The notes below the pieces were generated by a model that was not told the origin of the DNA, did not search any database, and worked only from the letters and a program-made list of their open reading frames with translations. DNA of 64,000 bases from Methanobrevibacter sp. YE315 (GTDB taxonomy: Archaea; Methanobacteriota; Methanobacteria; Methanobacteriales; Methanobacteriaceae). Both the position numbers and the translations under genes were made by a program. How positions within the stretch are numbered: position 1 is the first letter of the stretch; every line of letters begins with the position of its first letter. The stretch lies in the NCBI RefSeq assembly GCF_001548675.1, contig NZ_CP010834.1:1027501-1091500 (forward strand), given 5' to 3'. Shown in pieces: positions 22,205 through 62,040 of the stretch.

Positions 22205-22528
22205 GTGAACGTTACTAAAGTTTGGAATGATAGTGATGATCATGATGGTTTCAGACCTCAAAATGTGACTTTCGTGTTACTTGCTAATGGTAATGAGACT
22301 GCTAATGTTACTTTGAGCGGAACTGGTAATGTTTGGACTGCTAGTTTCAATGATTTACCTGTTTATGCTAATGGTAGTGCAATTGTTTACACTATTAAAG
22401 AGTTAACAGTTGAGTACTATAATTCCACTGTAACCAACAGCAGCTTGTCTAATTACACTATTACCAACACACGTATTGTTGAGTTCACAAGTGTGAATGT
22501 TACTAAAGTTTGGGACGATGACAGATGA
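22205..22528 (+). pseudogene. Second internal adhesin fragment
   Basis: One Cna_B repeat is again in the original frame, after a +2 hybrid at 22202-22209 (ACTAGAATGTGAACG, combining ACTAGAATTAACG with AGTGTGAATG). It loses frame at 22521-22525, where GACGATGACAGATGATC combines GACGATGACAATGATC with GATAGTGATGATC (+1). The downstream frame begins there. Confidence 0.75.
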
Positions 22529-28500: not shown

Positions 28501-29867
28501 ATATGGAAATGGATGCATCTGCAACTCTTAAATTAATTACAAAAGTTTTAACAGAAGGCATCAAAACCAACGTCGTTTCCGCAAACAGTACAACTCCGGA
28601 TTCAAACAAATCCAACAACAAAGCAAACAATACAACTAATGTTAACCCGATTTGTGATTTAGAGATTACTAAAATGGTTAATGCAACAGAAGTCAATGTA
28701 ACCGATTTTGTTGAATGGACCATAACCGTAGTGAACAATGGCCCAAGCATCGCACGCGATGTCGTTGCAGTCGACACATTGCCTGACGGTGTTAAACTGG
28801 TTGAAGTTCCTAAAAATTGCAGACTCGACGGAAATAACGTGATTTGGACAATTGGCGATTTGAACGCCGGCAATCCTGTTTCAATTACCTTATTGACCCA
28901 AGTCCTAAGCGAAGGAATCAAAACCAATATAGTCGTTGTCAACTCTACAACACCTGATTCAAATAAAACCAACAACAAGGCAAACAACACTACTGAAGTG
29001 AAACCTGTTTGTGATTTGGAAATCATCAAACTCGTAAGCTCCAAAAAGGCCTATGTTGGTGAAGAATTAACATGGACTATCATAGTAATTAATCACGGTC
29101 CTAGTGCAGCATTGGACGTTGAAGTATTAGAGGACATTCCAAGCTCCCTGAAACTCACCGGATACACTGCAACTGAAGGCACATACGATAAGACTACTAA
29201 CATATGGACAATCGGCAAACTTGATGGTGATGCAAGTGCAACCCTCACAATAGTAACCGAGGTATTGAGCGTTGGAAACATTACAAACCCTGTTGAAGCT
29301 AAAACTTCAACTCCTGATTCAAATAAAACCAACAACAAAGCTAACAATACCACTGAAGCTTCCGAAATCTGTGATTTAGAACTCAAAAAATCATCAGACA
29401 AAAAAGCCTACTACGTGGGAGATCAAATGCACTGGATTATTGAGGTTGTTAACCATGGACCAAGCCCAGCAAGAGATGTTGTGGCTTATGACGTACTGTC
29501 ATCTTCCGTAAGGTTCATAAGTTACTCAGCTTCCAAAGGTTCCTACGATGCATCAACTGGCAGATGGGACATCGGCGAATTGGCAAAAGGCGAATCAGTC
29601 ACTTTGGATATACTCTGTGAAGTATTGACCGAAGGAATGATTACCAACTATGCTAATGTAACCACAAGCGTTAATGAAACCAATTTGGATAACAATTACG
29701 ATAACGCTACCGTAGAGGTTACCAACAAAACCGAACCTGTACCAGAACCAGAACCTACTCCTGAACCTCCAGTGACCCTCAAGGAAACTGGTAATCCGAT
29801 AGCATATCTTTTAGCTGCCGTTTTAACTATATTTGGTAGTTGCTGGTTAAGGAAAAAACAAGAATAA
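22497..29867 (+). CDS. Giant adhesin-like protein, C-terminal part
   Basis: True coding in this frame starts at about 22523; the first nine codons from the ATG at 22497 are the out-of-frame end of the preceding repeat. It holds the last 14 Cna_B units, then nine DUF11 domains (about 26515-29700; each begins PNMTVEK- or CDLEITK-like and contains a VVNHGPS-type motif). It ends with a Pro/Glu linker (PEPEPTPEPP), a hydrophobic segment (PIAYLLAAVLTIFGSCWL) and RKKQE. That tail anchors the stalk in the membrane with the domains outside. Joined with the N-terminal part after removing seven extra bases, the product is 6792 aa. It is probably a long surface fibre for attachment to cells or gut substrate. 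Confidence 0.85.
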   Translation: MLLKFGTMTDDHDGFRPDNVTFVLLANGNETANVTLSGAGNVWTASFNDLPVYANGSAIVYTIKELTVEYYNSTVTNSSLSNYTITNSRIVEFTSVNVTKVWNDSDDHDGFRPQNVTFVLLANGNETANVTLSGTGNVWTASFNDLPVYANGSAIVYTIKELTVEYYNSTVTNASLSNYTITNSRIVEFTSVNVTKVWNDSDDHDGFRPDNVTFVLLANGNETANVTLSGTGNVWTASFNDLPVYANGSAIVYTIKELTVEYYNSTVTNASLSNYTITNSRIVEFTSVNVTKVWNDSDDHDGFRPQNVTFVLLANGNETANVTLSGTGNVWTASFNDLPVYANGSAIVYTIKELTVEYYNSTVTNASLSNYTITNSRIVEFTSVNVTKVWNDSDDHDGFRPQNVTFVLLANGNETANVTLSGAGNVWTASFNDLPVYANGSAIVYTIKELTVEYYNSTVTNSSLSNYTITNSRIVEFTSVNVTKVWNDSDDHDGFRPQNVTFVLLANGNETANVTLSGTGNVWTASFNDLPVYANGSAIVYTIKELTVEYYNSTVTNASLSNYTITNSRIVEFTSVNVTKVWNDSDDHDGFRPDNVTFVLLANGNETANVTLSGTGNVWTASFNDLPVYANGSAIVYTIKELTVEYYNSTVTNASLSNYTITNSRIVEFTSVNVTKVWNDSDDHDGFRPQNVTFVLLANGNETANVTLSGTGNVWTASFNDLPVYANGSAIVYTIKELTVEYYNSTVTNASLSNYTITNSRIVEFTSVNVTKVWNDSDDHDGFRPQNVTFVLLANGNETANVTLSGTGNVWTASFNDLPVYANGSAIVYTIKELTVEYYNSTVTNASLSNYTITNSRIVEFTSVNVTKVWNDSDDHDGFRPQNVTFVLLANGNETANVTLSGTGNVWTASFNDLPVYANGSAIVYTIKELTVEYYNSTVTNASLSNYTITNSRIVEFTSVNVTKVWNDSDDHDGFRPQNVTFVLLANGNETANVTLSGTGNVWTASFNDLPVYANGSAIVYTIKELTVEYYNSTVTNASLSNYTITNSRIVEFTSVNVTKVWNDSDDHDGFRPQNVTFVLLANGNETANVTLSGTGNVWTASFNDLPVYANGSAIVYTIKELTVEYYNSTVTNASLSNYTITNSRIVEFTSVNVTKVWNDSDDHDGFRPQNVTFVLLANGNETANVTLSGTGNVWTASFNDLPVYANGSAIVYTIKELTVEYYNSTVTNASLSNYTITNTRIVEYTSVNVTKVWNDSDDKDKLRPNEITVELYNGVELIDSVVLNQANNWKGNFTDLPVYKDGKKIVYTVAEIEVDKYNSTVTNSTLGNYTITNTHVPYKPNMTVEKITLDKVVFVNDTVKFLIVVTNTGDCDLTDVTVYEIFKSGELDYNDYIDPTGKWSMTGNYVYVYNGTLTAGESANFTVVFTALTNGTFLNAVNASSNKTDNKTGNNTTTVYRPNMTVQKITLDNVVFVNDTVRFLIVVTNTGDCDLTDVKVTEIFKPKELKYNSYIDSTGKWSKESDYVFVYDGNMTAGGSANFTVVFTALTNGTILNTVNASSNETDNKTGNNTTEVKPICDLEITKSVNPAKVYVNDTVVWTIEVVNHGPSKAENVVVYDTIPDGLEFSVPQGCTFDGKYLIWNVGDLDVNKRAALELITKVTREGNITNIVVVNSSTPDSNESNNEANNTTVVEPICDLVITKLVNASSVNVNETVEWNVTVVNKGPSLAMDVVVREILQDGLAIISAAPSAGSFDEKSRIWEIGELDIDSPVSLILVTKVLTNGTLTNVVVVNSTTPDSNESNNKANNTTVANPICDLEIVKLVNASEVNVSDIVEWTITVKNNGPSAACDVVAKDTLPDGVKLVEVPENCRLEGNTVIWTIGILPAYDRISLTLLTQVLTEGNKTNIVIVNSTTPDSNESNNRANNTTDVYPVCDLEITKLVNATEVYVNDVVEWTVVVKNNGPSTAKDVVVKELLPEGIELLDVVPSVGDYENGIWTVGDMEMDASATLKLITKVLTEGIKTNVVSANSTTPDSNKSNNKANNTTNVNPICDLEITKMVNATEVNVTDFVEWTITVVNNGPSIARDVVAVDTLPDGVKLVEVPKNCRLDGNNVIWTIGDLNAGNPVSITLLTQVLSEGIKTNIVVVNSTTPDSNKTNNKANNTTEVKPVCDLEIIKLVSSKKAYVGEELTWTIIVINHGPSAALDVEVLEDIPSSLKLTGYTATEGTYDKTTNIWTIGKLDGDASATLTIVTEVLSVGNITNPVEAKTSTPDSNKTNNKANNTTEASEICDLELKKSSDKKAYYVGDQMHWIIEVVNHGPSPARDVVAYDVLSSSVRFISYSASKGSYDASTGRWDIGELAKGESVTLDILCEVLTEGMITNYANVTTSVNETNLDNNYDNATVEVTNKTEPVPEPEPTPEPPVTLKETGNPIAYLLAAVLTIFGSCWLRKKQE

Positions 29868-47134: not shown

Positions 47135-48283
47135 TTAAGTATCAGCAGGCATATGAAATATTAAAACTGCAAGTTTTATTTTGCGACTTTTATCCCCGTT
47201 TAGATGGAATGTGTAATTGAACCATGATTCTCCAGAGGATTCATGTTCTTTAAGGTAGTTATTGTGTTTTTTTGTCTTTATTTTTATTTGTTTGAGGACA
47301 GGATCAATCTTTTTGTTATCGACAAATATTACTAATGCAGTTTTTGTATCTCTCCATGTTAAATAACTTAATAATTGATTAATTGCGGCACAATAGGATT
47401 TAATTCCCCTCCAAAATTTACATTCTGCAATAAAAATATTAGTATTTTCATGCCTTATTAAAATGTCTGTTTTACCTTTTTTATTATATGTTTCTCCAGT
47501 AACTGATTCATTAAGAATGGGGGTTAGTGTTGATATAAATTCATCTCTTAATTCTTCTTCATTTTTGCCAGTATATGTTGAAGGTAATCTTTCTAATGAT
47601 TTGCCATAATTATAAATTATTTTTAATATTTCATTATAATCTTCTGGAGTGATTATAGGTTCTAATTCATTTTCGTTTGGTTTGTGTTTAAAAGGTAACG
47701 GTTTATTTTTTTTAAAGATTGGCACGGCATAAGTTTGTGATTCATTTTTGTTTCTTAATGGAATTCCGAGAGATTTTAAATCATTCCTATGTTTAATTAT
47801 TTCAGTTTTGTATTCTTTAAAAATGTTGGATATTCTAATTGGTAATGAAGAATTATATTCATTTATCTCTTTCTCTAAGTTTTTATATTGGTTTTTAATT
47901 TTCCTTTCTTGTTGATCTTTATAATTTCTAATCATTTCAGCATCGGTGTATGGAATATTAAAACAAACACAATTTTCATTAATGAATACTGTGACTGTGA
48001 ATGAATAATGGTTGGGTCTAAATTTTAATATTTCTTTGTTTCCTCCGAAAGGTAGGTAATATGTTAGGATATTGTTAGTTGAGTCTATGCTTCCTTTGTC
48101 AAAATAAAACGTTATTAAATCGGATTCATATTTTTCCAATAAATAATCAAAATATTTAGTTTCATCAACATTAAGAATATAATCTTCTGGCTGGTTTCTT
48201 ATTTCATTATAAAGTTGCTCATATTTATTTCTTGCATAATCACTAAAGTAATTTTCTGTGTTAAATATATCAAATTCATACAT
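47135..48283 (-). CDS. PD-(D/E)XK nuclease-like protein
   Basis: In this 382-aa protein the C-terminal domain contains TGETYNKKGKTDILI..NIFIAECKFWRG (Asp273, Glu287, Lys289), a clear PD-(D/E)XK nuclease core, followed by INQLLSYLTWRDTKTALVIF. The N-terminal 200 residues contain a beta domain and a coiled coil (about 125-185) that may sense or bind the target. It starts one base after the AbrB-like gene, so the two are translationally linked. No methyltransferase is fused; it is likely a defence nuclease. Confidence 0.68.
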   Translation of the reverse strand: MYEFDIFNTENYFSDYARNKYEQLYNEIRNQPEDYILNVDETKYFDYLLEKYESDLITFYFDKGSIDSTNNILTYYLPFGGNKEILKFRPNHYSFTVTVFINENCVCFNIPYTDAEMIRNYKDQQERKIKNQYKNLEKEINEYNSSLPIRISNIFKEYKTEIIKHRNDLKSLGIPLRNKNESQTYAVPIFKKNKPLPFKHKPNENELEPIITPEDYNEILKIIYNYGKSLERLPSTYTGKNEEELRDEFISTLTPILNESVTGETYNKKGKTDILIRHENTNIFIAECKFWRGIKSYCAAINQLLSYLTWRDTKTALVIFVDNKKIDPVLKQIKIKTKKHNNYLKEHESSGESWFNYTFHLNGDKSRKIKLAVLIFHMPADT

Positions 48284-48284
48284 A

Positions 48285-48467
48285 TTATCTCTTTATTATT
48301 TTTAATTCCAATTGTTCTGTTTCAGTATCTAATATCCACTCTAATGTATCACCGGATTCAATGTTCAATGCTTTTACATATGTTTTAGGTATTGTTGTAA
48401 TGAGTGAAATCTCACCTTGATTTCTTACTTTTGTTTCTTCATTAATTTTCATAATATTAATTTTCAT
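48285..48467 (-). CDS. AbrB/MazE-type DNA-binding protein
   Basis: The 60-aa protein matches a SpoVT-AbrB swapped-hairpin domain: TKVRNQGEISLITTIPKTYVKALNIESGDTLEWIL. Such proteins are antitoxins or transcription factors that bind their own promoter. An alternative start five codons later (MKINEETK) is possible; the first twelve bases are repeated around it. It is first gene of the leftward unit and faces the methyltransferase gene across a 124-bp region with palindromes that it may bind. Confidence 0.75.
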   Translation of the reverse strand: MKINIMKINEETKVRNQGEISLITTIPKTYVKALNIESGDTLEWILDTETEQLELKIIKR

Positions 48468-48560: not shown

Positions 48561-48591
48561 ATATAATTTGTATTTGTATGGATGTGATAAT

Positions 48592-49590
48592 ATGAAAGTA
48601 ATAGAATTATGTGCAGGTGCAGGTGGATTGGCACTTGGATTTGAAAAAGCAGGTCTAGAGCATGAATTACTTGTTGAAATAGACAAAGATTGTATTGCAA
48701 CATTACATAAAAATAGACCTGACTGGAATGTACTTCATGCAGATATAAAAGAAGTTGACTTTACTAAATATCATCCAGATATAGTTGTGGCAGGACTACC
48801 TTGCCAGCCATTTTCTTACGCAGGTAAAAAATTAGGCTTTGACGATACTAGAGGAACATTATTCTTTGATTATGCAAGATGTCTAAAAGAAACTAATCCA
48901 AAAATGTGCATAATTGAAAATGTAGAAGGATTAGTCAGACATGACAAAGGACGAACCATGGAAACAATAGTAAATGTATTGGAAAATGAATTAGGTTATG
49001 ATGTCCAATATAAAGTGCTAAATGCCGTAGATTATGGTGTAGCTCAAAAAAGAAAAAGAATGTTTCTTGTAGGAACAAAAAAAGGCGTAATCTTTAACTA
49101 TCCAAAAAAAGTCAAAGGAAATCCTGTCCTCAGGGATGCTCTTAAAGATGTTCCAGAATCTGAAGGAACCGAATACTCCGATAAGAAAAAAGAGGTTCTT
49201 GAATTAGTTCCTCCTGGTGGTTGTTGGGTTGATCTTCCAGAAGATGTTCAAAAAGAATATATGGGTAAAAGCTTTTATTCTGGTGGTGGAAAACGTGGAA
49301 TGGCAAGAAGAATCTCATGGGACGAACCATGTTTAACATTAACAACTTCTCCATGTCAAAAACAGACAGAAAGATGTCATCCGGAGGAAGTAAGGCCATT
49401 TACTGTAAGAGAATATGCAAGGATACAATCATTTCCAGATGATTGGGAGTTTGAAGGGGGAATAACATCTAAATATAAACAAATTGGAAATGCGGTGCCA
49501 GTTAAAGTTGCTGAAGCAGTTGGTCTTGAAGTGATTAAAGCATTAAACGGTGAAAATAAAAGAAAAGAAGGTCAAACAACTTTAGTTTAA
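48592..49590 (+). CDS. DNA (cytosine-5)-methyltransferase
   Basis: The product has 332 aa from the ATG at 48592 (MKVIELCAGAGGLALGFEKAG, motif I); an upstream ATG would add eight residues but lies on the promoter side. Catalytic Pro-Cys-Gln is at 70-72, ENVEG at 109-113, QKRKR at 152-156, and VREYARIQSFPDDW and QIGNAVP near the C-terminus. The target-recognition region between about 210 and 265 is short, typical of enzymes for 4-5-bp sites. It methylates cytosine C5 in DNA. It overlaps the convergent restriction gene by 4 bp and stands near a DISARM-like operon, whose class-2 form uses a 5mC methylase. Confidence 0.9.
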   Translation: MKVIELCAGAGGLALGFEKAGLEHELLVEIDKDCIATLHKNRPDWNVLHADIKEVDFTKYHPDIVVAGLPCQPFSYAGKKLGFDDTRGTLFFDYARCLKETNPKMCIIENVEGLVRHDKGRTMETIVNVLENELGYDVQYKVLNAVDYGVAQKRKRMFLVGTKKGVIFNYPKKVKGNPVLRDALKDVPESEGTEYSDKKKEVLELVPPGGCWVDLPEDVQKEYMGKSFYSGGGKRGMARRISWDEPCLTLTTSPCQKQTERCHPEEVRPFTVREYARIQSFPDDWEFEGGITSKYKQIGNAVPVKVAEAVGLEVIKALNGENKRKEGQTTLV

Positions 49591-50315
49591 TCTTTAAATA
49601 TTAGTTGTTTGTATTTTTCAAATACTATTTGGTCTTTTGGGGTTAAAATGTGTTTGTTCTTTTTAATATCATTTATTGCTTTTGGAAGGGCATCAAATAA
49701 TTGTTCAAAAGCAGTTTCATCTCCAGTAACTAATGTATAAACATCTTTTCCAGCAATATTTCTAATATTGTCATTTACTTCATGTACAACATTTTCTTTA
49801 TTGTCTCTATACACCCAAGTTTTATCAAATGATTCATAATTTTGTGAAACTATATAAGCCCAATATATTTTAGCATTTGGATATTTTTCAGCTAGTTCTT
49901 CACATTTAAATCGAGTATCTCTTAAAGAACTTGAATTCATTGTATTATATTTATTTTTTAATTCAATCCATATAGTGTTATCTTCTTTTTTCAAGTCCAT
50001 TCCTGACGGGTCTCCCCTTCCAAGATTTACCCATCCATCAACACGTCCTAAAAGATTTTGGTGGAAATCACCAACACGATTACTTGCAGTTTTATCATGT
50101 TGTCTAGGTATTTCAAAATTAATCCAATCACTTAAACTGAATCTATTGGAGTAAATATCAAATAATGTTTTAAATTGGTCGATGGTTTCTCTACTATTAC
50201 TTAAAACTTCCCAAGGGTGTTTTGATAAATCTTCATCAGTTGCATAGGCATCTACAACTTTTTTTACTTCTTCTAGAAATATTTCATCTGAAACAAAAGT
50301 TACATATTTGTTCAT
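49587..50315 (-). CDS. Eco47II-family type II restriction endonuclease
   Basis: The 242-aa protein matches this family in order: NRVGDFHQNLLGRVDGW, then GDPSGMDLKKEDNTIWIELK with Asp107, Glu118, Lys120, then NKYNTMNSSS and a helix with ELAEKYPNAKIYWAYIV. The KNK(Y/H)NTMNSSS block is distinctive for Eco47II-like enzymes, which recognise GGNCC. It is convergent with, and overlaps by 4 bp, the C5-methyltransferase, so they form a type II R-M pair; the exact site is inferred. It cuts unmethylated incoming DNA. Confidence 0.82.
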   Translation of the reverse strand: MNKYVTFVSDEIFLEEVKKVVDAYATDEDLSKHPWEVLSNSRETIDQFKTLFDIYSNRFSLSDWINFEIPRQHDKTASNRVGDFHQNLLGRVDGWVNLGRGDPSGMDLKKEDNTIWIELKNKYNTMNSSSLRDTRFKCEELAEKYPNAKIYWAYIVSQNYESFDKTWVYRDNKENVVHEVNDNIRNIAGKDVYTLVTGDETAFEQLFDALPKAINDIKKNKHILTPKDQIVFEKYKQLIFKD

Positions 50316-50529
50316 TTTATCACTTCAAAGTAAATATTGCTAATGGTTTATTTTATTTTGGTTTTGCTTTAAATAGTTTTATAAAATTTATTTTTTCTTA
50401 TTTTCTAAAAAGTCCCAATATAATTTGAAATAGTAAGTATACTTTATTTATCAAAGTATTTTTTATAAAAAGTTATATTCAATGAAAAATATACATCTAT
50501 ATAAACATAGGTTATATGTTGTGAATATT

Positions 50530-52173
50530 ATGGATTTTGAATTAGTTGATTATGACGAGTATTTTCCTCGATTAAGAAAATATTTTTCTTGTTATTTACG
50601 AGGTAGAATGGATTATCAACATTTACATCCTAAAACTAAGCAACCAATTTTTAATTCACAAATTCATTTTTACAATTTAGATGTTGGCCATTCAATTTAT
50701 TTTTTCAATAATGAAGGTTTTACTTATTTTGGTTTAGGTAGAGAAATAGAGGATTTTGCTAGTTTTAATGCCATTAAATTAACTACACATTTAAATTATC
50801 AAATTAAAGTTAAAGATGCAATACATTTTGCAAAAGATGAATTGAACAAAATATTTTTAATAATGCCAATTAACTATGATTTATTGTCAGATAAGGAAAT
50901 ATTTTCTCTAAAAGATAAAAATGAAATAATTTTAATTGATAATGTGGAATATATTAATTTTGGTGAATTAAAAAGAGGCATACATATATTAAGAAATATC
51001 CGTAATTTCATGGAACATATTACTGTTAATCCACAATATACTTCTTTTTTAAAAATAGTTAAAGTTAAAATTTTATATAAATTTTCAAAAGATCCTAACT
51101 TTTGCCCTTCCTGTGATAATCTGATAGCTAAAAGCTATGAAAACAATGAAATAATAAAAAATCTTGTTGGTGATAATCCTAAAATTTGTGCCGATTGTTA
51201 TTCAATGAAATTAATGGATTATTTCTTGTCTAAAGCAACAGATATTTTTTTAAACAGATATTATCTTGAAATATTAGCAGAGAATACTTTGGATATAAAA
51301 TTTTATTTGAATCTTTTTGATAAATATGGAATGTTTGATGAAAATGGTTTTTTAGAGAAAACTTCAACCCAAAGTTCTTTTGTTCCACCAAAATATCAAT
51401 TAAATACTCTTTTTTTAGAAACAATGCAATCATATATTGACTTAATTAATGAAAGGACTATGATTTGTGAGGGAGATAAATTATCTGATTTTGAGTCTAC
51501 TCTTTTAAAAAATAATTTATCTTATGCTGAAGGATTTGAAATAAAAAATCAAGTTGAATATAAGGTTCTATCAGGTAAACTTAAATTAGGTGGAGGTAAA
51601 TACAATAAACGGATTAATAAAGAAATTAAAAAGAAGATTAATGAAAAATCTAATTCTAAAAAAAATGCAGTAAATGTTTTTGAGATAATAGAAATATTAA
51701 ATAGAAAAACATTGAATTCTAAAGGTGAATTGAATGACGATTTTAGAAATAATATAACTTCTTTTGATTTAGATGAATCTGTTTGTTGGAAAATAAGGGA
51801 TGAATTGATAGATGGAATCAATAACAGAACTATTGAAAAAAATCATTTTCCAAAAGTATTTAATAAGGCATGTAATGAAGTTATTCAAGAGGAATTAAAT
51901 AAGATATTTACAAAAAAAGAGTGTTATTGTGTTGATAATTCAGTATATTTAAAAACAGTATTAAATCAAAAAGAAATGGGGGATTTTGTTAAAAATTTAA
52001 ATTCAATTAATGATGCATTGGAAATAAATAATTTTAATCTTTTTAATTTGAATAATAATTTTTTTAAGATTATTTTAGACTTTAAGATTATTAAAATAGA
52101 TGTTTTAACTGATTTTCTAGATAATTTTGGATTTGATAAAACAGTATTATATTGTGATAATGGAGAGGGTTAA
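50530..52173 (+). CDS. Unrecognised protein with a zinc-finger-like motif, first gene of the DISARM-like operon
   Basis: The product has about 547 aa from the ATG at 50530 (MDFELVDYDEYFPRLRKYF); an in-frame ATG at 50482 is also possible but lies near a TATA-like TTTATAAAA (50461). A Cys cluster (CPSCDNLIAKSYENNE..ICADC) at about 195-235 probably binds zinc. The N-terminal 180 residues look alpha/beta, the remainder helical and Lys-rich. No known family is recognised. Its end overlaps the next gene by 14 bp, and that gene abuts drmA, so it is very likely a component of the same system. Confidence 0.6.
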   Translation: MDFELVDYDEYFPRLRKYFSCYLRGRMDYQHLHPKTKQPIFNSQIHFYNLDVGHSIYFFNNEGFTYFGLGREIEDFASFNAIKLTTHLNYQIKVKDAIHFAKDELNKIFLIMPINYDLLSDKEIFSLKDKNEIILIDNVEYINFGELKRGIHILRNIRNFMEHITVNPQYTSFLKIVKVKILYKFSKDPNFCPSCDNLIAKSYENNEIIKNLVGDNPKICADCYSMKLMDYFLSKATDIFLNRYYLEILAENTLDIKFYLNLFDKYGMFDENGFLEKTSTQSSFVPPKYQLNTLFLETMQSYIDLINERTMICEGDKLSDFESTLLKNNLSYAEGFEIKNQVEYKVLSGKLKLGGGKYNKRINKEIKKKINEKSNSKKNAVNVFEIIEILNRKTLNSKGELNDDFRNNITSFDLDESVCWKIRDELIDGINNRTIEKNHFPKVFNKACNEVIQEELNKIFTKKECYCVDNSVYLKTVLNQKEMGDFVKNLNSINDALEINNFNLFNLNNNFFKIILDFKIIKIDVLTDFLDNFGFDKTVLYCDNGEG

Positions 52174-52447
52174 GATTACAACACAGGATAAAATTTTTTA
52201 TAAAATAGATTCTAAAGAGTCATGTAAAGTTATTTTAGAATCTAATCTGGATAAAAAAGATTTATTTTTGGATATTATTGAGTTATTAGATGATTACTCA
52301 AAATTTATTTCTAAAATTATTATTCATAAATCTTTAGATGAACATTTTGAATCACAAATTCAGATTACAGTTTCGAAATCTAAAATGGAACCATTAGTGA
52401 AAAACATTCGAAATTTAAATTATAAAGAATTGAGTGAGGTTAATTAG
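52160..52447 (+). CDS. Unrecognised 95-aa protein directly before drmA
   Basis: The ATG at 52160 (MERVKITTQDKIFYKIDSKE) overlaps the upstream gene by 14 bp, and the TAG stop is followed immediately by the drmA ATG at 52448. The predicted secondary structure alternates strand and helix (FLDIIELLDDYSKFISKIII, SQIQITVSKSKMEPLVKNIR). No family is known to me. The tight spacing suggests stoichiometric expression with its neighbours. Confidence 0.6.
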   Translation: MERVKITTQDKIFYKIDSKESCKVILESNLDKKDLFLDIIELLDDYSKFISKIIIHKSLDEHFESQIQITVSKSKMEPLVKNIRNLNYKELSEVN

Positions 52448-55400
52448 ATGTCTGACCGTGAATTAAGAAAAGAAATGATAATGGGAGTTATTGATGAGAT
52501 GCGGGGGCCTCGTTTTAACATTAATGAGGTTGTAAAATATAATCCTGCAACTGAATATCTTGTCGGTACTGTGATTCCAATGAATTGGAAACCTCCAATT
52601 AAAGATAAAAGAACTATGGATGACTTAGGTTCCGAAAATATTAATGATATTGATTATGTTGGATCTGATGATTCAAATTCTGGAATAGATAATGTTTTGG
52701 GAAATAATTCTCCAATTTTAAACCCTAATTCTCAAATTAGGTCTTTTGGTCTTTCGTTTATGGTAAATTCTCAAGAAGATATATCATTGGATATTTGTGT
52801 TACTTGGGGAAGATATTTTAAGGACAATGATTCGGAAGAAGGATTTTCATTAAATGGTGTTTTGAGTAAAAGACAATCTGACGATATACTGTGGAAAAGA
52901 GAATCGTTCGGTGAAGTACGTAAGGTTAATGTAGATGATTCATTTAAAAATGGTAAAAAAATACCAGTGTATGAATCTGATGATGGGTCAATTAATTTAT
53001 TTATTAAACGTCAGGAATTAAATGAAAATAAATCCCATATTTCAATTTATTTAATAAACAACTTGATTGTAACAACTAACAAGAAAAAATCTCGTCCTGA
53101 AACACAAGATTGTTTGTTCCAACCCTCAATTAGAGTAAATTTAAAAGATTCAAAAAAACTCGTTGGCATGGATACTTTTGCAGAGTCTAGTGATGAATTA
53201 GATTTTTTATATAGAAATAAACAAGTTTTGGCTACTGGACATTTATGTTCTGTGATTTGGAAGGATATTGATTATTATGATGAATTTAAGAATCTTAAAA
53301 ATTTAATTTGGCCAGATGAATCTGCAATTGATAATTCTCAAGATTTCACTGAACCAACTATAAGGACGGAATTTTTACCATTATATCCTATTAACTTGCC
53401 TGAGTTTGATATAAAAGAGAACAATTTAGAATTACGAGCTAATAAATTAGCATATCTGACACAAAATGAATTATATGATAATTTATTAAAGTTATACAGT
53501 TCTTATTCAGATTGGATAAATAAAAATGTTTCTAAACGGAAATCATTACAAGATAAGTATCTTAAAATTTCTAAAGATATAATTGATAATGAAAAAGAAG
53601 CATTATCTCGTATTAAGGAAGGTATTGAATTAATTAAGTCAGAAGAATTGGTTTATTTGGCTTTTTGTTTTGCAAATAAAACTATTAATCTCCAAGATGA
53701 ATGGAAACGAGGAATCAACACTGGGGTGAATGTTTATTTAAGTGATGAATGTGATGAAGATGCTTTTAAATGGAGAGCATTCCAATTAGCTTTTATTCTA
53801 ATTAATCTAGAATCAATATGGAATAAAGATTCAAAAAACAAATCCGTTCTTGACTTGTTATGGATTCCAACTGGAGGCGGTAAGACCGAAGCATATTTAG
53901 GTATAATGGCATTTACTATGGCATTAAGAAGGTTAAAAGCTAAACATGGTTTAAATAAAGAAAAAACTGGTGCTGGCGTTTCAATAATATCTAGATATAC
54001 CTTAAGGTTACTCACCGTTCAACAATTTAGAAGAACTCTAAGAATGGTTACTGCTGCAGAATATTTGAGAGTTTATAAGTCTTATGGTAAAATTGGTTGG
54101 AGAAATTCAAATACGATTTCAGAAGATTGTATTTATGGTTCTGTAAGATTTTCTGTTGGTATGTGGGTAGGAGGCTCTGTTACTCCTTTACATTTAAATA
54201 AAAAGGACATTGGGGCTATTGACATATTGAAATCTGAAGGCTCTGAAGGTTATGGAAATCCTGCTCAAGTTATGAAGTGTCCTGTTTGTGGATCGTGGTT
54301 AGCTATTCCTGAGGAAGGATTAACTGATATTAAAAATCATGTCCATATTGTTGTTTACAGTAAGGATTATAGTAAAGATGAGATTCAGAAGAATATGGAC
54401 GAAATTCGAGAAAATTTTATTGGAAAGATTAAAGTCACTGACAAAACTAATAAAAAGGGTTATTTTACTATTTCAATATGTTTTAATCGTAAAGTTCAAC
54501 ATGATGAGTATGAAGATTTGATTGACTATATTTATGATTGTTATGAACCCGTTTCATTAAATAAAATGTCTCCGGGTTATATTAAAAGTCAAGGAAAAGT
54601 TGGTGGACGTCAAAGACCTGAAACTGATTATGAAATATGGTGTACAAATCCTAAATGTTCATTAAATCATGATTGGAAAGAAGGAGTTCCATTATCAAGT
54701 AATGATGTAGAATTTCCTGATGGTAATTATTTAAGAATATTGGAAAGTCCTTTTAAAAATAATTCTAAAATACCTATTCCCGCTTATTTGATTGATGAAC
54801 ATGTTTATTATAGATGTCCTACAGTAATTGTTAGTACTGCCGATAAAATAGCTAGATTTGCATTTGAACCAAGAGCGGGATCAATATTTGGTGTAGTTAA
54901 TAAATATCATAAATATTATGGTTATTATCGTAATGAGCTATTGCCTGAAAATCATTCTGGACGTGTTAAAGATGATTTTGTTGAAATTAAATCATTGCTT
55001 CCGCCAGATTTAATTATTCAAGATGAACTGCATTTGATGAATGGTCCATTGGGCAGTCTTTTTGGACTTTATGAAAATATGGTTAATGCAATTATTGAAA
55101 AGCAAGGAGGTAATCCAAAATATATTGCTTCTACTGCAACAATTAATAATGCTGAAAAACAAGTAAAATTGTTATTTTCCAAAAAAGTATCCCAATTCCC
55201 ACCCTATGGATTAGATATTTCAGATAGCTTTTTTGTTAAAGATTTTTCTAATGAATATGGCAATATGTGGGATGAAAACAATCGTGGTAGAGTTTATATG
55301 GGTATTTATTCCTCAGGATTTGGACATTTTACTCATCAAATTAGATTGTACTCTAGATTGCTAAGTGTTGCTAATGATAATTTGGAAAATGATAAACTCA

Positions 55401-56323
55401 AGTATTATTGGACTATCGTAGGCTATTATAATGCAATTAAAGAGTTAGGTAGTGGTGTTGCATTATATAAAGATGATATTTTATCAAGACTTAAAAATAT
55501 TTCTTATGATCCATTTACTAGGAAATTAAAACCTGAAGATGATAATTTAGAGTTGTCAAGCCGTATTGATTCAACTAATTTACCAATTATTTTAGATGAA
55601 TTAGAACGGGATGGGGATAATAAACCTCCAAATTATAATGCTATTTTCACTACTTCTATGTTTGGTACAGGTGTAGATATTTCTCATTTATCAATTATGA
55701 TTATGAATGCACAACCTAAAACAACTGGTGATTATATACAAGCTACAGGACGTATTGGTCGTAATCATGGGGGTTTAATTATAGACTTATTAAGATCAGG
55801 TCGTCCGAGAGATTTAAATCATTATGAATTATTTTCTTCATACCATTCTAGAATAAATCGGGAAGTAGAACCAATATCCGTTTCTCCATTTTCAGAGGGG
55901 TGTTTGTTGAGAGGTTTAGGACCTTCTTTAGTATCATTTTTAAGGAATGTTGGGGGTACTGAATTTAATTTAGATGACAAACCTGAAAATATTAGTTCAA
56001 ATTGTTCTAATGAGTATATTGAATTATTTAAAGAAAGTACTGCGGAAAGATTAAGTAATATGAAATTTTCTGATAAAGAAATTCAGAATATTTTAACAAA
56101 AATTGATGAAGGTGTGTCTAATTGGAAAAACCTAGTTACGAAAATGAATAATGGCGGTAACATTTTGGAATATTATGAAAAATTTAGCAACTTCCATCCT
56201 CCTTCAAAAAATGTTGTTTTAGGTGACCCAGCACATGATAAAATTGATGAATTAGAAGTTGTATATAAAAATGCTCCAATGTCTCTTAGAGATATTGAAG
56301 ACACATTGGAATTCTGGGTGTAA
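52448..56323 (+). CDS. drmA: DrmA-like SF2 helicase (DISARM core)
   Basis: The 1291-aa length is typical of DrmA. Walker A PTGGGKTE is at about 474-481, with a long insert containing CPVCGSWL, then IIQDELHLMNGPLG (Walker B DELH, about 857-870), IASTATINNAEKQ (motif III) and TTGDYIQATGRIGRNHGG (motif VI, about 1093-1108). The N-terminal 380 residues are the DrmA-specific region. It is an ATP-dependent helicase or translocase acting on invading DNA together with DrmB. GTGAGG lies before the ATG, and the stop is two bases before drmB, as in known DISARM loci. Confidence 0.8.
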   Translation: MSDRELRKEMIMGVIDEMRGPRFNINEVVKYNPATEYLVGTVIPMNWKPPIKDKRTMDDLGSENINDIDYVGSDDSNSGIDNVLGNNSPILNPNSQIRSFGLSFMVNSQEDISLDICVTWGRYFKDNDSEEGFSLNGVLSKRQSDDILWKRESFGEVRKVNVDDSFKNGKKIPVYESDDGSINLFIKRQELNENKSHISIYLINNLIVTTNKKKSRPETQDCLFQPSIRVNLKDSKKLVGMDTFAESSDELDFLYRNKQVLATGHLCSVIWKDIDYYDEFKNLKNLIWPDESAIDNSQDFTEPTIRTEFLPLYPINLPEFDIKENNLELRANKLAYLTQNELYDNLLKLYSSYSDWINKNVSKRKSLQDKYLKISKDIIDNEKEALSRIKEGIELIKSEELVYLAFCFANKTINLQDEWKRGINTGVNVYLSDECDEDAFKWRAFQLAFILINLESIWNKDSKNKSVLDLLWIPTGGGKTEAYLGIMAFTMALRRLKAKHGLNKEKTGAGVSIISRYTLRLLTVQQFRRTLRMVTAAEYLRVYKSYGKIGWRNSNTISEDCIYGSVRFSVGMWVGGSVTPLHLNKKDIGAIDILKSEGSEGYGNPAQVMKCPVCGSWLAIPEEGLTDIKNHVHIVVYSKDYSKDEIQKNMDEIRENFIGKIKVTDKTNKKGYFTISICFNRKVQHDEYEDLIDYIYDCYEPVSLNKMSPGYIKSQGKVGGRQRPETDYEIWCTNPKCSLNHDWKEGVPLSSNDVEFPDGNYLRILESPFKNNSKIPIPAYLIDEHVYYRCPTVIVSTADKIARFAFEPRAGSIFGVVNKYHKYYGYYRNELLPENHSGRVKDDFVEIKSLLPPDLIIQDELHLMNGPLGSLFGLYENMVNAIIEKQGGNPKYIASTATINNAEKQVKLLFSKKVSQFPPYGLDISDSFFVKDFSNEYGNMWDENNRGRVYMGIYSSGFGHFTHQIRLYSRLLSVANDNLENDKLKYYWTIVGYYNAIKELGSGVALYKDDILSRLKNISYDPFTRKLKPEDDNLELSSRIDSTNLPIILDELERDGDNKPPNYNAIFTTSMFGTGVDISHLSIMIMNAQPKTTGDYIQATGRIGRNHGGLIIDLLRSGRPRDLNHYELFSSYHSRINREVEPISVSPFSEGCLLRGLGPSLVSFLRNVGGTEFNLDDKPENISSNCSNEYIELFKESTAERLSNMKFSDKEIQNILTKIDEGVSNWKNLVTKMNNGGNILEYYEKFSNFHPPSKNVVLGDPAHDKIDELEVVYKNAPMSLRDIEDTLEFWV

Positions 56324-56325
56324 AT

Positions 56326-58179
56326 ATGGTTAGAGATATACAAGAAATTAGGGAATCACAATTTGTTTTAATGTATGGTCCAGGAGCTCTTATAGAAAGT
56401 AAAAATGGAACTAGATTAATTCCACAAATTAATCATTGTCTTGGTTCAGAAAGATATAATGATGATTTTTTAAGAAAAAATGAATTTGACAATGAAATTA
56501 GGTTGAGTAGTGTTATTAAGAGCATAACTGATGAGAGCAAAATTCATTTATTTTCAATGCCGTCTAATTCCAGTCAAAACTCTGAAAAAGGGAATGGGAG
56601 TTATAAAACATATGTTTTTCCTACATGGAAGATTTGTAATGATAAACATGATGGTATTGGAACTATATTATATAATTCTGTATTTTCAAAAAATAATCGG
56701 TGCCCAATATGTGGAGAAGACCCTTCTACCAATGTACGTTTTGTTTTAGCATGTTGTGATGGACATTTGGATGATATTCCATGGGATTATGCTGTCCATG
56801 GTTCTAATAATTCTTGTCGTCCAAAATATTATGAATGGATTGATAAGGGAGGTAGTTTTTCAGATATTGTGATTAAATGTCCAGTTTGTCATACAACCAA
56901 AACAATGGATGAAATTTATCTTAATGTTCCATTTAAATGCACAGGTAGATATCCAGAAAAACAAGGTCCTCTTGATAAACGTAAGGGAGTTAAGGTGAGT
57001 TTTGCTGATTTTACTGATGATTCTAAGAAAAGCGATTGTAATCATTATATGAAAATTGTTCAAAAACAATCAACATCCTTGAGAGTGCCTAATACTATTA
57101 CGTTATTAAAAATGCCAAAATATGATGATCCAATTGTTAGATTATTTAATAATCCTGGTTTTAAGTTATTAAAGTCATTCATTTCCCAATCAAAAGATTT
57201 TGTTTCACTTTTAAATCTTTTACAGGATTTAGAAAAAGAAGATTTAAATACATTAACAGATTATCTTCTTGAAAAAAAATTTATCATAAAAAATAATGGT
57301 AAATATGTGAATAGTGATGATGAAAATATTAATCAACGTTTTCAAGAGTTTAAAAAATTAATTTTAGACATTATAAATGGTGTTGATTTTAAAGGAGCGT
57401 TAAACGAAGAGTTATATACATTAAACATGGATGAGATTTCTGAATCAAGCATGGTTAAACATTCTTTCATTAATTATGATTTAAAATGGTTGGATAATAA
57501 ATTCCCTATTAAAATTTCCCCAATTTCCAAATTAAAAACAGTAACTGCACAGCTGTCTTACCGTAGAGAACCTTGGCTCGATTCTGATGATGATGAGCCG
57601 GGAAATATTAAAAATGAATATGTCTCTTCAGGTCATAAAAATGAGGATGGAGTTTGGTATCCTGCTTATGAAGGAGTGGGTGAAGGAATTTTCATTACTT
57701 CAGAGTATAATCCACTAAAATATCTGGATTTGGATAAAAATTTAATTGAGAAATGGGAAAATGTTATTGGACATATTGATGCAGGAGATAGGGAAGAAAT
57801 TAAGGTTCCTTTATTTGTTTGGTGGCATACATTATCACATGCATTGATTAATAGTCTTTCGTTATCCTGTGGTTATAATTCAACTTCTTTAAAAGAAAGA
57901 ATTTATATAAATGGCGATAATGCGGGTATTTTGATTTATAATACTTCTCCTGGAGAAGATAGTGGAATGGGAGGTTTAGTCGAAACAGTAAAATCTTTTG
58001 ACATTGTTTTAAAAAATGCTATGAATGCATTATTGTTTTGTTCTAATGATCCATTATGCTATAATGAAGAAATAGGTAAAAATAAAGTTAATGGTGCAGC
58101 TTGTCATAATTGTTTACTTATTTCTGAGACTTCTTGTGAGCATAGAAATACATTATTGGATAGGCATTTATTTATTTAA
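56326..58179 (+). CDS. drmB: DrmB-like DUF1998 protein (DISARM core)
   Basis: The 617-aa protein begins with IRESQFVLMYGPGALIESKNG, a frequent DrmB opening. A zinc knuckle CPICG (about 126) is followed by a CxxC at about 186. The DUF1998 block is near 495-560 (FVWWHTLSHALINSLSLSCG, SPGEDSGMGGLVETVKSF) and ends with Cys-rich GAACHNCLLISETSCEH. DrmB partners DrmA in binding DNA ends or ssDNA in DISARM. The downstream gene follows after 15 bp with an AGGTG site. Confidence 0.83.
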   Translation: MVRDIQEIRESQFVLMYGPGALIESKNGTRLIPQINHCLGSERYNDDFLRKNEFDNEIRLSSVIKSITDESKIHLFSMPSNSSQNSEKGNGSYKTYVFPTWKICNDKHDGIGTILYNSVFSKNNRCPICGEDPSTNVRFVLACCDGHLDDIPWDYAVHGSNNSCRPKYYEWIDKGGSFSDIVIKCPVCHTTKTMDEIYLNVPFKCTGRYPEKQGPLDKRKGVKVSFADFTDDSKKSDCNHYMKIVQKQSTSLRVPNTITLLKMPKYDDPIVRLFNNPGFKLLKSFISQSKDFVSLLNLLQDLEKEDLNTLTDYLLEKKFIIKNNGKYVNSDDENINQRFQEFKKLILDIINGVDFKGALNEELYTLNMDEISESSMVKHSFINYDLKWLDNKFPIKISPISKLKTVTAQLSYRREPWLDSDDDEPGNIKNEYVSSGHKNEDGVWYPAYEGVGEGIFITSEYNPLKYLDLDKNLIEKWENVIGHIDAGDREEIKVPLFVWWHTLSHALINSLSLSCGYNSTSLKERIYINGDNAGILIYNTSPGEDSGMGGLVETVKSFDIVLKNAMNALLFCSNDPLCYNEEIGKNKVNGAACHNCLLISETSCEHRNTLLDRHLFI

Positions 58180-58194
58180 GTTGTAGGTGTTTAA

Positions 58195-60804
58195 ATGAGG
58201 AAATATTTTACTAATATTCAGTTTTGTCCAAATTGTTTTGATGTTGTTGATAATAGTCACTTAAAACATTTGGATATTAATGAAAATATTCTTAAATGTG
58301 ACTCTTGTGGTTGTTATTTTAGAAATAAGATTTTAATTAATGATTCTAAAGGTAATTTTTTATTTCCTCAGTTTAGTGAGATTAAATTAAATAAAATTGA
58401 AAAATCATATGTTAATTGGGTATTGAATGATTTTGATGGTAAATATATTATTACCTGGCCTTGGAAGTCTGTAAAATTCATTCCAATTTTATTATCTCAA
58501 TTTTTATTCAAAAATCCTGGTAGTAAAATAGTTATATTTACAAATCCAATTTATTTTCAAAACGATGAATTTAGCGATTCTAGTCTCCCAAATATATTAA
58601 ATTCATTATATTCAATAAATAATCCTAAAGATAATAACAATGTTCCAATAATTGATGTAGATGATGTTTTTATCAAATCAAATCTCAATAACGCAAATTT
58701 AAATAAAAATTTTGTTGATTCAATTGATTTATGTTTTAATAATAAATTTGATTTAATTCCTTGCTTTTTTGATGTTGATTATTGTTTTATTCATTCAATT
58801 GATGATATTAATAAAGATATGGTGGATAATCAATTATTCTTTATTAATGAATCCATATTATCTTCGCATATTATTGATTTGATTGATGTAATATCTCCTG
58901 AGTTAATAATTGCTACAGATATTGATGCACTTTATGGGAAGAATAGATTTGGTAAGGGAAACAAAATATATGACTTATTTAAAATGGATTCTGACCTTTT
59001 GTTATTTTCTGTTGATTTAAATCAAAGAAATACTCATAATATTGGTCAAGAAAATTATTTTCTTAAAAATTGGAATATCGTTCCACATACTTGGGATTAC
59101 TCTATAGTTCTTAATAAAATAAAAGATTTGAGCATGGATGAACATTCTTTTTGTTCATCATGTTTTTCAGATATTCAAAAAATCATACCTATATTTGATA
59201 TTGAGTTTATTGAATGTGAAGTCTTATTAGATATTGAATCTACATTTGAAATATTTTATGAAATTTTTCCTCATGATAAAAAAATTATGGATTCTTTAAA
59301 AGATTTAATGAAGACTCCATTATATATAAAAGGTGCGCATAATGATTATAGGGTCTTGAATAGGAATGTTACTTTTGAATATCTTTTTAATTTAATTTAT
59401 AATATTGATTTGGATAAGTGGGAATCATTAATGGGTATTTTTGATGAGGTATATGATTTCCATGGAACTGGAAAGAATCCAATTGCTGAATCATTGGTTG
59501 AATTAATAAAAAATAAAAATATTTCTCAGGATGAATTGGTTGTTATTGTTCATAAATATGATATTAAGGGAACAGAACGTATTTTAGAAGATTATTTGGG
59601 TGAGAATGATATTTTGGTCAGTAGTTGGTCAGATTTGGATGATGATATTAAAGATACTACAATTACTTATGCTATTTCTACTATATTTCCACAACCAAAA
59701 TATAATGCTTTTTCTTCACAAATTGAAAAATTGGATATTATTTGCAGTCCAAATAACCATAAACGTTTTGAAGTATATAAAAAAAATAGATTTACTGCAA
59801 ATGGTTTAAAACCTGTTTATTTATTATCTGAAGATGAAAAAGCTCCTTATTTACTTGAATATTGTTTGAGAGATGTTGAAGTTCCTCAAGAGTACTATGA
59901 TGAATTAAATAAGATTCATGAGCTTGATTTTATTTATAATAGTTATAGTTTAATGTTTAAAAGGTTCAATTATTCAAAATTACGTAAGAATGATAACGCT
60001 ATTTTAATTTTGAATAGTTATGGTCAAAGTATGTTTCTTAAGTTCAATACAATAATTTATATTCTTGATGAAGGGGGCAAACCTGTTGATTTTGAAATTG
60101 AATATAAAAATTATGGGGATTTAGTTAATAATAAAATTATGATTAATGAAGGGGGATATCATTCTATTGGCCATATTTTTTTCAAATTTGTCATTGAAAA
60201 CGGGCAAGACATAATTTTGCATGAAGGTAAGTTTAAATGGCATGGATTTAAGAATCTAGTAGAAAATATGTTTGAATGGGTTGAAATTTTAAATAATATT
60301 GCTCATGATGAATTTAAACGGAGTTCAAAAGATCTTGATTCAATTAAACTAGATTTAGCAAAAGAATTAAGTGGTTTAGGGCTTACGGCTGAAAGAGAAA
60401 AGTATATAATGGATGTTTGGTTAGATGAACCACAACCTTTAGAAACAACTGAAGGTGTTATTAATATTTATGAAGCAGAACGTCCACACGGTAAAGATGA
60501 TATTCCAAAAATCTATAAATGGGTTTCAAGTACATATTCTCAATTTGCACTTACTAATTTGGGAGCTAGTAAATGTTTTACTGCATCTAAATTGTTAAAG
60601 CGTATAAGAAAAAATTTTTTAAAAACTGAATCTTCAAAACTCGGTAAAGATCTTGATGATTTAAATTTAGAGTTTAAACAATTTTTAAATGAAGAAAAAG
60701 AATTATTTAATAAGTTTCAAATTGATTCAGTTGAAAAAGTTAAAATTAAACATGATGCTCCATCATTTGAGATAATTAATAATCCAGAGGATTATATTAA
60801 ATAA
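58195..60804 (+). CDS. 869-aa protein with N-terminal zinc ribbon and degenerate-helicase-like region
   Basis: The N-terminus has two CxxC pairs (CPNCFDVV, CDSCGCYF; residues 12-42) forming a zinc ribbon. Residues 75-125 (YIITWPWKSVKFIPILLSQF..KIVIFTNP) resemble a helicase motif I/Ia region without a canonical Lys-Ser/Thr loop. About 440-490 (LVVIVHKYDIKGTERILEDY) looks like a second RecA-type lobe. The C-terminal third is mixed. It occupies the position of accessory subunits in DISARM and could be a divergent DrmE- or DrmD-like protein; I cannot confirm that by eye. The gene ends in a convergent gap of 30 bp before the AspBHI-like gene. Confidence 0.6.
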   Translation: MRKYFTNIQFCPNCFDVVDNSHLKHLDINENILKCDSCGCYFRNKILINDSKGNFLFPQFSEIKLNKIEKSYVNWVLNDFDGKYIITWPWKSVKFIPILLSQFLFKNPGSKIVIFTNPIYFQNDEFSDSSLPNILNSLYSINNPKDNNNVPIIDVDDVFIKSNLNNANLNKNFVDSIDLCFNNKFDLIPCFFDVDYCFIHSIDDINKDMVDNQLFFINESILSSHIIDLIDVISPELIIATDIDALYGKNRFGKGNKIYDLFKMDSDLLLFSVDLNQRNTHNIGQENYFLKNWNIVPHTWDYSIVLNKIKDLSMDEHSFCSSCFSDIQKIIPIFDIEFIECEVLLDIESTFEIFYEIFPHDKKIMDSLKDLMKTPLYIKGAHNDYRVLNRNVTFEYLFNLIYNIDLDKWESLMGIFDEVYDFHGTGKNPIAESLVELIKNKNISQDELVVIVHKYDIKGTERILEDYLGENDILVSSWSDLDDDIKDTTITYAISTIFPQPKYNAFSSQIEKLDIICSPNNHKRFEVYKKNRFTANGLKPVYLLSEDEKAPYLLEYCLRDVEVPQEYYDELNKIHELDFIYNSYSLMFKRFNYSKLRKNDNAILILNSYGQSMFLKFNTIIYILDEGGKPVDFEIEYKNYGDLVNNKIMINEGGYHSIGHIFFKFVIENGQDIILHEGKFKWHGFKNLVENMFEWVEILNNIAHDEFKRSSKDLDSIKLDLAKELSGLGLTAEREKYIMDVWLDEPQPLETTEGVINIYEAERPHGKDDIPKIYKWVSSTYSQFALTNLGASKCFTASKLLKRIRKNFLKTESSKLGKDLDDLNLEFKQFLNEEKELFNKFQIDSVEKVKIKHDAPSFEIINNPEDYIK

Positions 60805-60834
60805 ACTTATTAAATAAGCATATAATGACTTAAA

Positions 60835-62040
60835 TCATCTTTCATCATTTTGATCAATATTTCTTAGCCAAGTTTCAATATTATCGCTAGTAATGGAATT
60901 TATTCTAAGAATGGCTGCAATATCTGAAGCAGTAACAATCAAAATTGGATGTCCGTCTTCAATAACTTCACTATAAGCTTGGCTATTCACATAACTTGTA
61001 GTAACAAGTATTCCAAATTGACGATACTTTATTCTAGAAATCAATCTTGACATATTTCTTACATTAACACCAGTATTCGATGAATAACATTTCGCTTCAA
61101 GTGAACAATCAATAATTAGCGGATAATTGGCTTTTCCTCCAGTAAAAATTTGATATTTTCCGTAAGCATCTCTACCACCATCTCGCCAAGGGCGGGTTAG
61201 TTCAAAATTAATAAAATTTGAATCCATTTTACTTATTAAATCGCATGCACAAGCTTCAAAACCTTGAGGATTATCTTTGTAATGGTTTCTAATAATTTCT
61301 AGACATTTTTCTCCTTCACTATCACATTCTAATTGTTTTTGTTTTGAAGGTATATCTTGAATTCGTGGTGATTTAAGAGCGTGAATTCCATCTCTTCCTT
61401 TTTTAATATATTCTCTCCAGACATCAGGAGCATATTTTAAATTATTTTCATGGTTTTCTATTAAACTAACTAACCATTCTTGAGTTATTGGTTTTTCACC
61501 GGTGTCTAATATTGTAAAATAAGCTTCATAGTTTTGGAATCTTTTTCCATCCATTGTTCTCCAAAAAGCTACTAAATCACGATCGGGGGAGATGTTTTGG
61601 TTACCTGGTGCTGCTAAACCTAAAAATTGGACGTTTCTACCAGTTCCAGTTTTTTTAAAAACGAAAAATGGAGGAATGTCTTCTAAATTTTCTTTTGAAT
61701 TTAATGTCTCAAATATACTTTCTAATAATTCATTTCCTTTTAGTTTTGTGTTGGTGATTTCTCTTCCAGGTTTTCTATTATCTCCAAAATATCTAAAGAT
61801 TCCTGTTTCTTCATCAAGATAATCTGGCCATTCTAATTCAGACATTGTTGTGTATAATATTACATATGCTGGTTTGCTTCTGTCATCATCACGGTGTACT
61901 TTTCTAAATCCTCCCATATTTCCACATTTTGGAAATATTTTAGATAATGGATCATCAGCGAGATTCTTTTGATTTCCACCTTCATATATACAATCAATGA
62001 TTAAATCGGCACCGTCCAATTCATTAAAGTTTATTTTCAT
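60835..62040 (-). CDS. AspBHI-like modification-dependent restriction endonuclease
   Basis: The N-terminal domain (LDGADLIIDCIYEGGNQKNL, DDPLSKIFPKCGNMGGFRKV, DNRKPGREITNTKLKGNELL, AFWRTMDGKRFQNYEAYFTILD) matches the base-flipping N-terminal domain of AspBHI-type enzymes, which read 5-methylcytosine. The C-terminal Mrr-like catalytic domain has RPWRDGGRDAYGKYQIF and LIIDCSLEAKCYSS (Asp291, Glu315, Lys317). At 401 aa the length fits the family. It would cleave DNA near modified cytosines. It converges on the DISARM-like operon and diverges from the UvrD gene. Its target context must differ from that of the nearby C5-methyltransferase. Confidence 0.8.
   Translation of the reverse strand: MKINFNELDGADLIIDCIYEGGNQKNLADDPLSKIFPKCGNMGGFRKVHRDDDRSKPAYVILYTTMSELEWPDYLDEETGIFRYFGDNRKPGREITNTKLKGNELLESIFETLNSKENLEDIPPFFVFKKTGTGRNVQFLGLAAPGNQNISPDRDLVAFWRTMDGKRFQNYEAYFTILDTGEKPITQEWLVSLIENHENNLKYAPDVWREYIKKGRDGIHALKSPRIQDIPSKQKQLECDSEGEKCLEIIRNHYKDNPQGFEACACDLISKMDSNFINFELTRPWRDGGRDAYGKYQIFTGGKANYPLIIDCSLEAKCYSSNTGVNVRNMSRLISRIKYRQFGILVTTSYVNSQAYSEVIEDGHPILIVTASDIAAILRINSITSDNIETWLRNIDQNDER

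Follow-up and report, generated by a model that had tools for sequence, protein, structure and literature searches.

A probable archaeal sub-lineage DISARM operon next to an Eco47II-type restriction–modification pair in Methanobrevibacter sp. YE315

Class 2 DISARM systems consist of drmE, drmA, drmB, drmC and drmMII, and type II restriction–modification (R-M) systems of the Eco47II/Sau96I type recognise GGNCC. The published DISARM core of Serratia, DrmAB, is autoinhibited and is activated by DNA with a 5' overhang; its ATPase is lowered by 5mC, its discrimination is achieved mainly by DNA structure, and DrmC is dispensable in the DISARM tested (PMC9142583). A survey of the YprA family mentions, without detail in its main text, many uncharacterised DISARM-like classes (PMC12458937). 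Here we describe a DISARM locus of a gut-type methanogenic archaeon, in a window of 64,000 nucleotides (G000:C1:1027501-1091500) taken from one 2.27-Mb contig. The features of the locus and its neighbours, in window positions, are:

48285-48467, minus strand: AbrB-like ORF of 60 aa at the left end of the R-M cassette, a possible regulator (tblastn; resemblance to AbrB judged by eye)
48592-49590, plus strand: C5-cytosine methyltransferase M (PF00145; a TTG start is possible at 48568)
49587-50315, minus strand: Eco47II-family restriction endonuclease R (PF09553 over the whole domain)
50482-52173, plus strand: P5, 563 aa (547 aa from the ATG at 50530), first gene of the operon, with a CxxC...CxxC knuckle and no recognised family
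52157-52447 (start approximate), plus strand: P6, about 96 aa, no recognised family; overlaps the end of P5, and its stop lies directly before the drmA ATG
52448-56323, plus strand: DrmA, long form (DrmAL), SF2/YprA-family helicase (PADLOC; NCBIfam DISARM_DrmAL above cut-off)
56326-58179, plus strand: DrmB, DUF1998/MZB protein (PADLOC; NCBIfam DrmB_fam above cut-off; PF09369)
58195-60804, plus strand: P9, 869 aa, putative N-terminal zinc ribbon and degenerate SF2-helicase-like region, a third core gene conserved in archaeal DrmAL operons (homologues by drmB/drmC; AlphaFold2 model)
60835-62040, minus strand: AspBHI-like modification-dependent restriction enzyme (PF18062 and PF04471; PADLOC mREase_II)

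DrmA matches the PADLOC DrmA model with E = 0 (1432 bits) and NCBIfam DISARM_DrmAL with 1369 bits (cut-off 999), and its helicase motifs PTGGGKTE, QDELHL, STATI and QATGRIGR are all intact. DrmB matches its PADLOC model (2.9e-161) and NCBIfam DrmB_fam (430 bits), and contains the MZB/DUF1998 domain. The locus has thus the two marks of DISARM membership, a DrmA of the DISARM clade and, beside it, a separate DUF1998/MZB DrmB. The operon comprises five genes in the order P5-P6-drmA-drmB-P9, in which the P5 and P6 frames overlap, the gaps at P6-drmA and drmA-drmB are 0-2 bp (2 bp for the latter), and 15 bp separate drmB from P9.

Compared with class 2 DISARM, the window shares DrmA and DrmB in order, a C5 methylase nearby, and a degenerate-helicase protein of ~870 aa in a DrmE-like place, but it differs in having no DrmC, a methylase that belongs to an R-M pair and not to the DrmMII family, a P9 that is not recognised as DrmE, and the additional P5 and P6. 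Between 48.0 and 62.4 kb there is neither a PLD match in Pfam or PADLOC nor a genuine motif of a PLD nuclease DrmC, as the two H-x-K-x4-D strings present in the six frames are chance matches, each in a stop-interrupted frame. No dedicated DrmMII lies in the operon, and no protein at the locus matches DrmE in PADLOC or Pfam, profile similarity being limited to the RecA1 part of P9. The class 1 parts (the SNF2 helicase DrmD and a DrmMI/PglX-type methylase) are likewise absent among the ten proteins encoded at 43.2-62.0 kb. The first-pass annotation had read DrmA at 52448, DrmB at 56326, the missing PLD-type DrmC, a C5 methyltransferase and Eco47II-type enzyme in a 4-bp convergent overlap, and an AspBHI-like modification-dependent enzyme; the family matches, motifs and coordinates confirm all of these, and the genes that it overlooked are P5, P6, P9 and the AbrB-like ORF.

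We consider it fairly probable that the locus is a DISARM-family operon of an archaeal sub-lineage, in which a DrmAB core with a P9 adaptor has gained P5 and P6, has lost DrmMII, glycosylase and DrmC, and has an autonomous R-M pair as its neighbour. By analogy with the Serratia DrmAB structures, DrmA and DrmB would form a helicase core that loads onto incoming DNA wherever a single-stranded end is exposed, moves along it and blocks it. P9, helicase-like in its predicted fold, may take the place of DrmE and serve the core as scaffold or adaptor, and P5 and P6, presumably acquired, would probably tune recognition or effector function. DrmC, which tested DISARMs can do without, would have been lost in the window lineage, as would the ancestral dedicated DrmMII and the mismatch glycosylase. 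The Eco47II-type pair would be an autonomous mobile cassette that either landed beside the operon or travels with it, and if DrmAB still reads a self-marking methylation at all, the adjacent M would most likely provide it.

M is matched by PF00145 (5.3e-89) and by PADLOC MTase_II (4.5e-127, versus 1.6e-66 for the best DrmMII model) and has the motifs PCQ, ENV, QKRKR and GNAV, and R is matched by PF09553 RE_Eco47II (2.9e-49) and carries the nuclease-like motif DLKKEDNTIWIELKNK. The genes converge with an overlap at 49587-49590, and the RE_Eco47II domain with its partner C5 methylase assigns the pair to the Eco47II-type systems; like those of the Eco47II/Sau96I type it is complete, convergent and motif-intact in both genes, and it differs from them by adjoining a DISARM operon. 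Eco47II-family genes are found in 11 of the 152 genomes of the phylum, 9 of which carry the M/R pair without drmAB, and the pair adjoins drmAB only in the window and in M. thaueri SIG19. The nucleotide homology among cassettes breaks off at ~48.29 kb on one side and ~50.36 kb on the other, short of the start of the DISARM operon; one genome (G041) has the pair and the genes to its left at 87-90% nucleotide identity, with drmAB absent, and another (G044) carries both the pair and drmAB, about 750 kb apart. Since the pair is free-standing in nine genomes, its boundaries exclude the operon, and G041 has no drmAB, the evidence goes against its defining a DISARM type: judged from these sequence comparisons, it is an autonomous mobile cassette and not what defines the DISARM variant. 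The AbrB-like ORF recurs upstream of M, with 89-97% identity, in six other Methanobrevibacter cassettes (tblastn).

Across Methanobrevibacter, M is 94-98% identical and R falls into lineages that are 44-50% alike (L093, L094, L092, L047 and L097 compared with 48592-50315), and in G044 and G090 two different R genes stand in tandem behind one M. Over window positions 1-64000, GATC (98 sites, ~192 expected) and GGNCC (35 sites, ~59 expected under a first-order model) are under-represented, and CCWGG and GGCC are not. The depletion of GATC and GGNCC fits the two R-M types of the genome, and for a GGNCC specificity of the Eco47II-type pair it is suggestive only.

The mobility of the cassette is one argument for chance adjacency in a defence hotspot, where the DISARM-like operon and the R-M pair work separately and DrmAB senses 5'-ssDNA ends only, a reading that we judge nearly evenly balanced. 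The surroundings agree with it, as the G+C content is 24-31% over nearly 20 kb from ~42 kb onward (31-41% ahead of ~42 kb) and defence-type genes are concentrated in this low-GC stretch (a Schlafen-type helicase, PDC-S54 and AspBHI, from Pfam and PADLOC). In addition, no C5 methylase was seen near the DISARM loci of two sister Methanobrevibacter (G044 and G040). The discrimination by Serratia DrmAB mainly of DNA structure points the same way, whereas the reduction of its ATPase by 5mC does not (PMC9142583). Chance is also harder to reconcile with a block common to two species and with R-M pairs that adjoin DISARM in two separate Methanobrevibacter lineages. The PDC-S54 candidate (47135-48283, minus strand; PADLOC E 4e-115) is absent between its flanking genes in G041, which points to an insertion or loss event of its own.

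What truly sets the locus apart from known DISARM is P9 together with P5 and P6. A scan of GTDB genomes with a DrmA profile gave 32 loci, and in archaea and one Desulfuromonas drmA-drmB is followed by a P9 homologue of ~1000 aa (869 aa in the window), often with a short PLD DrmC between. In the DrmA tree (a quick tree with midpoint root) the window and these loci form a clade of 19 members (SH-aLRT 100). The gene after drmB is visible in 17 of the 19, and P9 follows drmB or drmC in 15 of these (14 besides the window), the two exceptions being Methanobrevibacter G044/L034 and G040/L035 (L048 in the scan). No scanned DrmA locus outside the clade has P9, and of the 152 genomes of the phylum four carry it: three have an intact copy, in each case behind drmAB, and the fourth a broken remnant. 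Given this distribution within the clade, outside it and in the phylum, the association of P9 with DISARM goes well beyond chance.

The usual operon of the clade is DrmMII, HhH glycosylase, DrmA, DrmB, DrmC, P9. The archaeal DrmAL operons (Methanosarcina, Methanolobus, f3 genomes of the same order, Thermoplasmata, Bathyarchaeota and Methanophagales) share with the window the DrmA clade and the order of drmB then P9, but they keep a DrmMII and mostly an HhH-GPD glycosylase upstream of drmA, and most also keep a short PLD DrmC; the window lineage lacks all three, and none of these operons has P5 or P6. The DISARM-like classes mentioned in the YprA-family survey resemble the window in having a YprA-family helicase with a separate DUF1998 protein, and the main text of the survey describes no gene like P9 or P5/P6 (PMC12458937). 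We found no description of P9 or of the P5-P6-drmA-drmB-P9 set in the texts consulted, and P9 may already have been noticed by others. Because a protein conserved across several archaeal groups was missed by the family libraries tried, archaeal DISARM is likely annotated incompletely.

P9 has no family match in Pfam, PADLOC or NCBIfam, and as a single-sequence query it gave no match in genome contigs or in viral contigs; a DrmE query of the viral contigs also gave none. An AlphaFold2 model of medium confidence, built from 11 sequences (pLDDT 69.5, pTM 0.48), had 101 PDB matches at E < 0.001, the best 50 of which are nearly all SF2 helicases or ATPases, with low whole-chain TM-scores of about 0.2. 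At the Walker A position the P9 homologues have an invariant T-W-P, followed by W in all but one, and in every homologue examined a P-loop is absent there, from which P9 would be catalytically dead. The N terminus carries cysteine pairs suggestive of a zinc ribbon. In all, P9 looks like an ATPase-dead, SF2 helicase-like protein with a zinc ribbon, distantly similar to DrmE.

P9 could be simply a divergent DrmE, which would make the locus a normal class 2 system in which one subunit evolves fast, a possibility that we take seriously but place somewhat below even. The two proteins have equal size and the same degenerate SF2 layout, and the position of P9 after drmB resembles the DrmE loci of Methanobrevibacter G103, G071 and G104. 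Against the DrmE profile of these three genomes the RecA1 part of P9 scores 29.7 over a single 43-column stretch, exceeding all 60 column shuffles (maximum 19.7), whereas against DrmA it scores 14.7, at shuffle level. The RecA2 region, however, does no better than shuffles against DrmE, no P9 tested matches Pfam DrmE_N/DrmE_C or PADLOC DrmE, and the probable zinc ribbon at the P9 N terminus also argues against a simple equivalence. P9 is plausibly a very divergent DrmE, of which the second half gives no signal.

For P5, no search of Pfam, PADLOC, NCBIfam, PDB sequences, phages, plasmids or viral contigs rose above noise; the protein shows no useful signal against DrmE profiles, and its fold predicted from two sequences (pLDDT 37.5) is unusable. 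Its sole homologue found is in the M. thaueri locus (G105/L047; 74% identity), where a P6 homologue (75%) holds the equivalent position; a PHROG match of P6 to an HNH family (E = 0.0025) was too weak to trust. The P5-P6 form occurs in these two species only, and the G105 contig stops inside drmB, before any P9 position. On the favoured reading of a DISARM sub-lineage, P5 and P6 were probably gained in the window lineage and would tune recognition or effector function.

The genome of the window encodes only two C5 methylases. One is the M next to the operon; the other, at 155 kb and 0.9 Mb from the locus, faces a MutH-domain enzyme. Any sensing of cytosine methylation would have to draw on a methylase of an R-M pair, in the simplest case the adjacent M; DrmAB may also need no cytosine methylase at all. 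The closest DISARM relative is in a MAG of Methanobrevibacter thaueri, of the same genus (G105/L047), in which the R-M pair and P5-P6-drmA-drmB are collinear with the window over 8.48 kb at 88% nucleotide identity, and the left flanks differ. Between the two, M and drmA are ~93% identical, slightly more than the aEF-2 region (89%), which served as the yardstick of genome divergence as rpoB is missing from G105; P5 is 84% identical, and R 68% over part. In another Methanobrevibacter (G104/L039), a DISARM of the DrmE type adjoins a Sau3AI/MutH-type R-M pair. The M of this pair is encoded 130 bp before drmA in the same orientation, and the pair is closely related to the one at 155 kb in the genome of the window (M 84%, R 69%). 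Because this DISARM adjoins a different R-M pair, methylase borrowing may recur, and borrowed methylation is a live hypothesis with two possible instances.

The first-pass annotation had proposed a new DISARM variant with a shared methylase, to be supported by repeated co-occurrence of the pair with drmAB and refuted by relatives consistently lacking it. A variant it is, but the Eco47II pair is not its defining feature, and sharing is a possibility: the pair recurs with drmAB in M. thaueri and stands alone in the other nine carriers, and the related archaeal drmAB come with a DrmMII of their own and lack an Eco47II gene, against which stands the block found in two species. Under this model of sharing, the two would be integrated: M would protect DNA from both R.Eco47II and DrmAB, the R-M pair having replaced DrmMII. 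The lack of a dedicated DrmMII anywhere in the genome, the collinear block with its other left flank, the high identity of drmA and M, and the pair next to the G104 DISARM are all in its favour, but we regard it as rather doubtful, as the cassette mostly occurs alone and its boundaries leave the operon out, M is on its own transcription unit, separated from the operon by the opposite-strand R, the two systems of G044 are far apart, and the single shared block could be one event. Unlikely, in our view, is the broader proposal of a hitherto undescribed archaeal DISARM class, with the pseudo-helicase P9 as its defining third core subunit, whose Methanobrevibacter form shed its methylase and depends for self-recognition on whichever mobile R-M pair adjoins it, with P5-P6 as a new sensing or effector module, within which the Sau3AI-type pair of G104 would be a parallel case. 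If true, borrowing from a neighbouring R-M pair would account for methylation-sensitive systems being able to change or lose the methylase they encode, and would open the part played by methylation in DISARM to a direct test.

The AspBHI-like protein is a full-length member of its family, with the AspBHI N-terminal domain (PF18062, 9.2e-58) and the Mrr catalytic domain (PF04471, Mrr_cat; PADLOC mREase_II 3.5e-134), and differs from other AspBHI/Mrr-type enzymes in nothing beyond its position. It was rejected as a DISARM component, the other copy in the phylum (G029) being in a genome with no DrmA match; an AspBHI gene also lies within ~3 kb of drmB in a Planctomycetota DISARM locus (L061), which may reflect island clustering.

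Other DISARM loci of the scan showed further gene contents. In G044/L034 (3582-8001) and G040/L035 (1-3134) a TPR-cold-shock protein is encoded 3' of drmB, where G044 also has a Csx1-like CARF-HEPN protein and the contig of G040 breaks off inside the TPR gene, a content that hints at a possible tie of DISARM to cyclic-oligonucleotide signalling. In many DISARM operons of archaea, and in some of Chloroflexota, a gene for an HhH-GPD mismatch-glycosylase-like protein separates the C5 methylase from drmA (L050, L055, L057, L069, L074-L078 and others), presumably for repair of 5mC deamination. Directly before drmA, the bacterial DrmAL loci L061, L063, L068, L070 and L071 have a GHKL-ATPase protein of 720-770 aa with weak matches to type II restriction models, relatives of which follow DrmMII in Methanolobus (L049, L054). 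Elsewhere in the window, two giant ORFs (9482-21598 and 22497-29867) encode proteins of 4038 and 2456 aa that are probably adhesin-like surface proteins.
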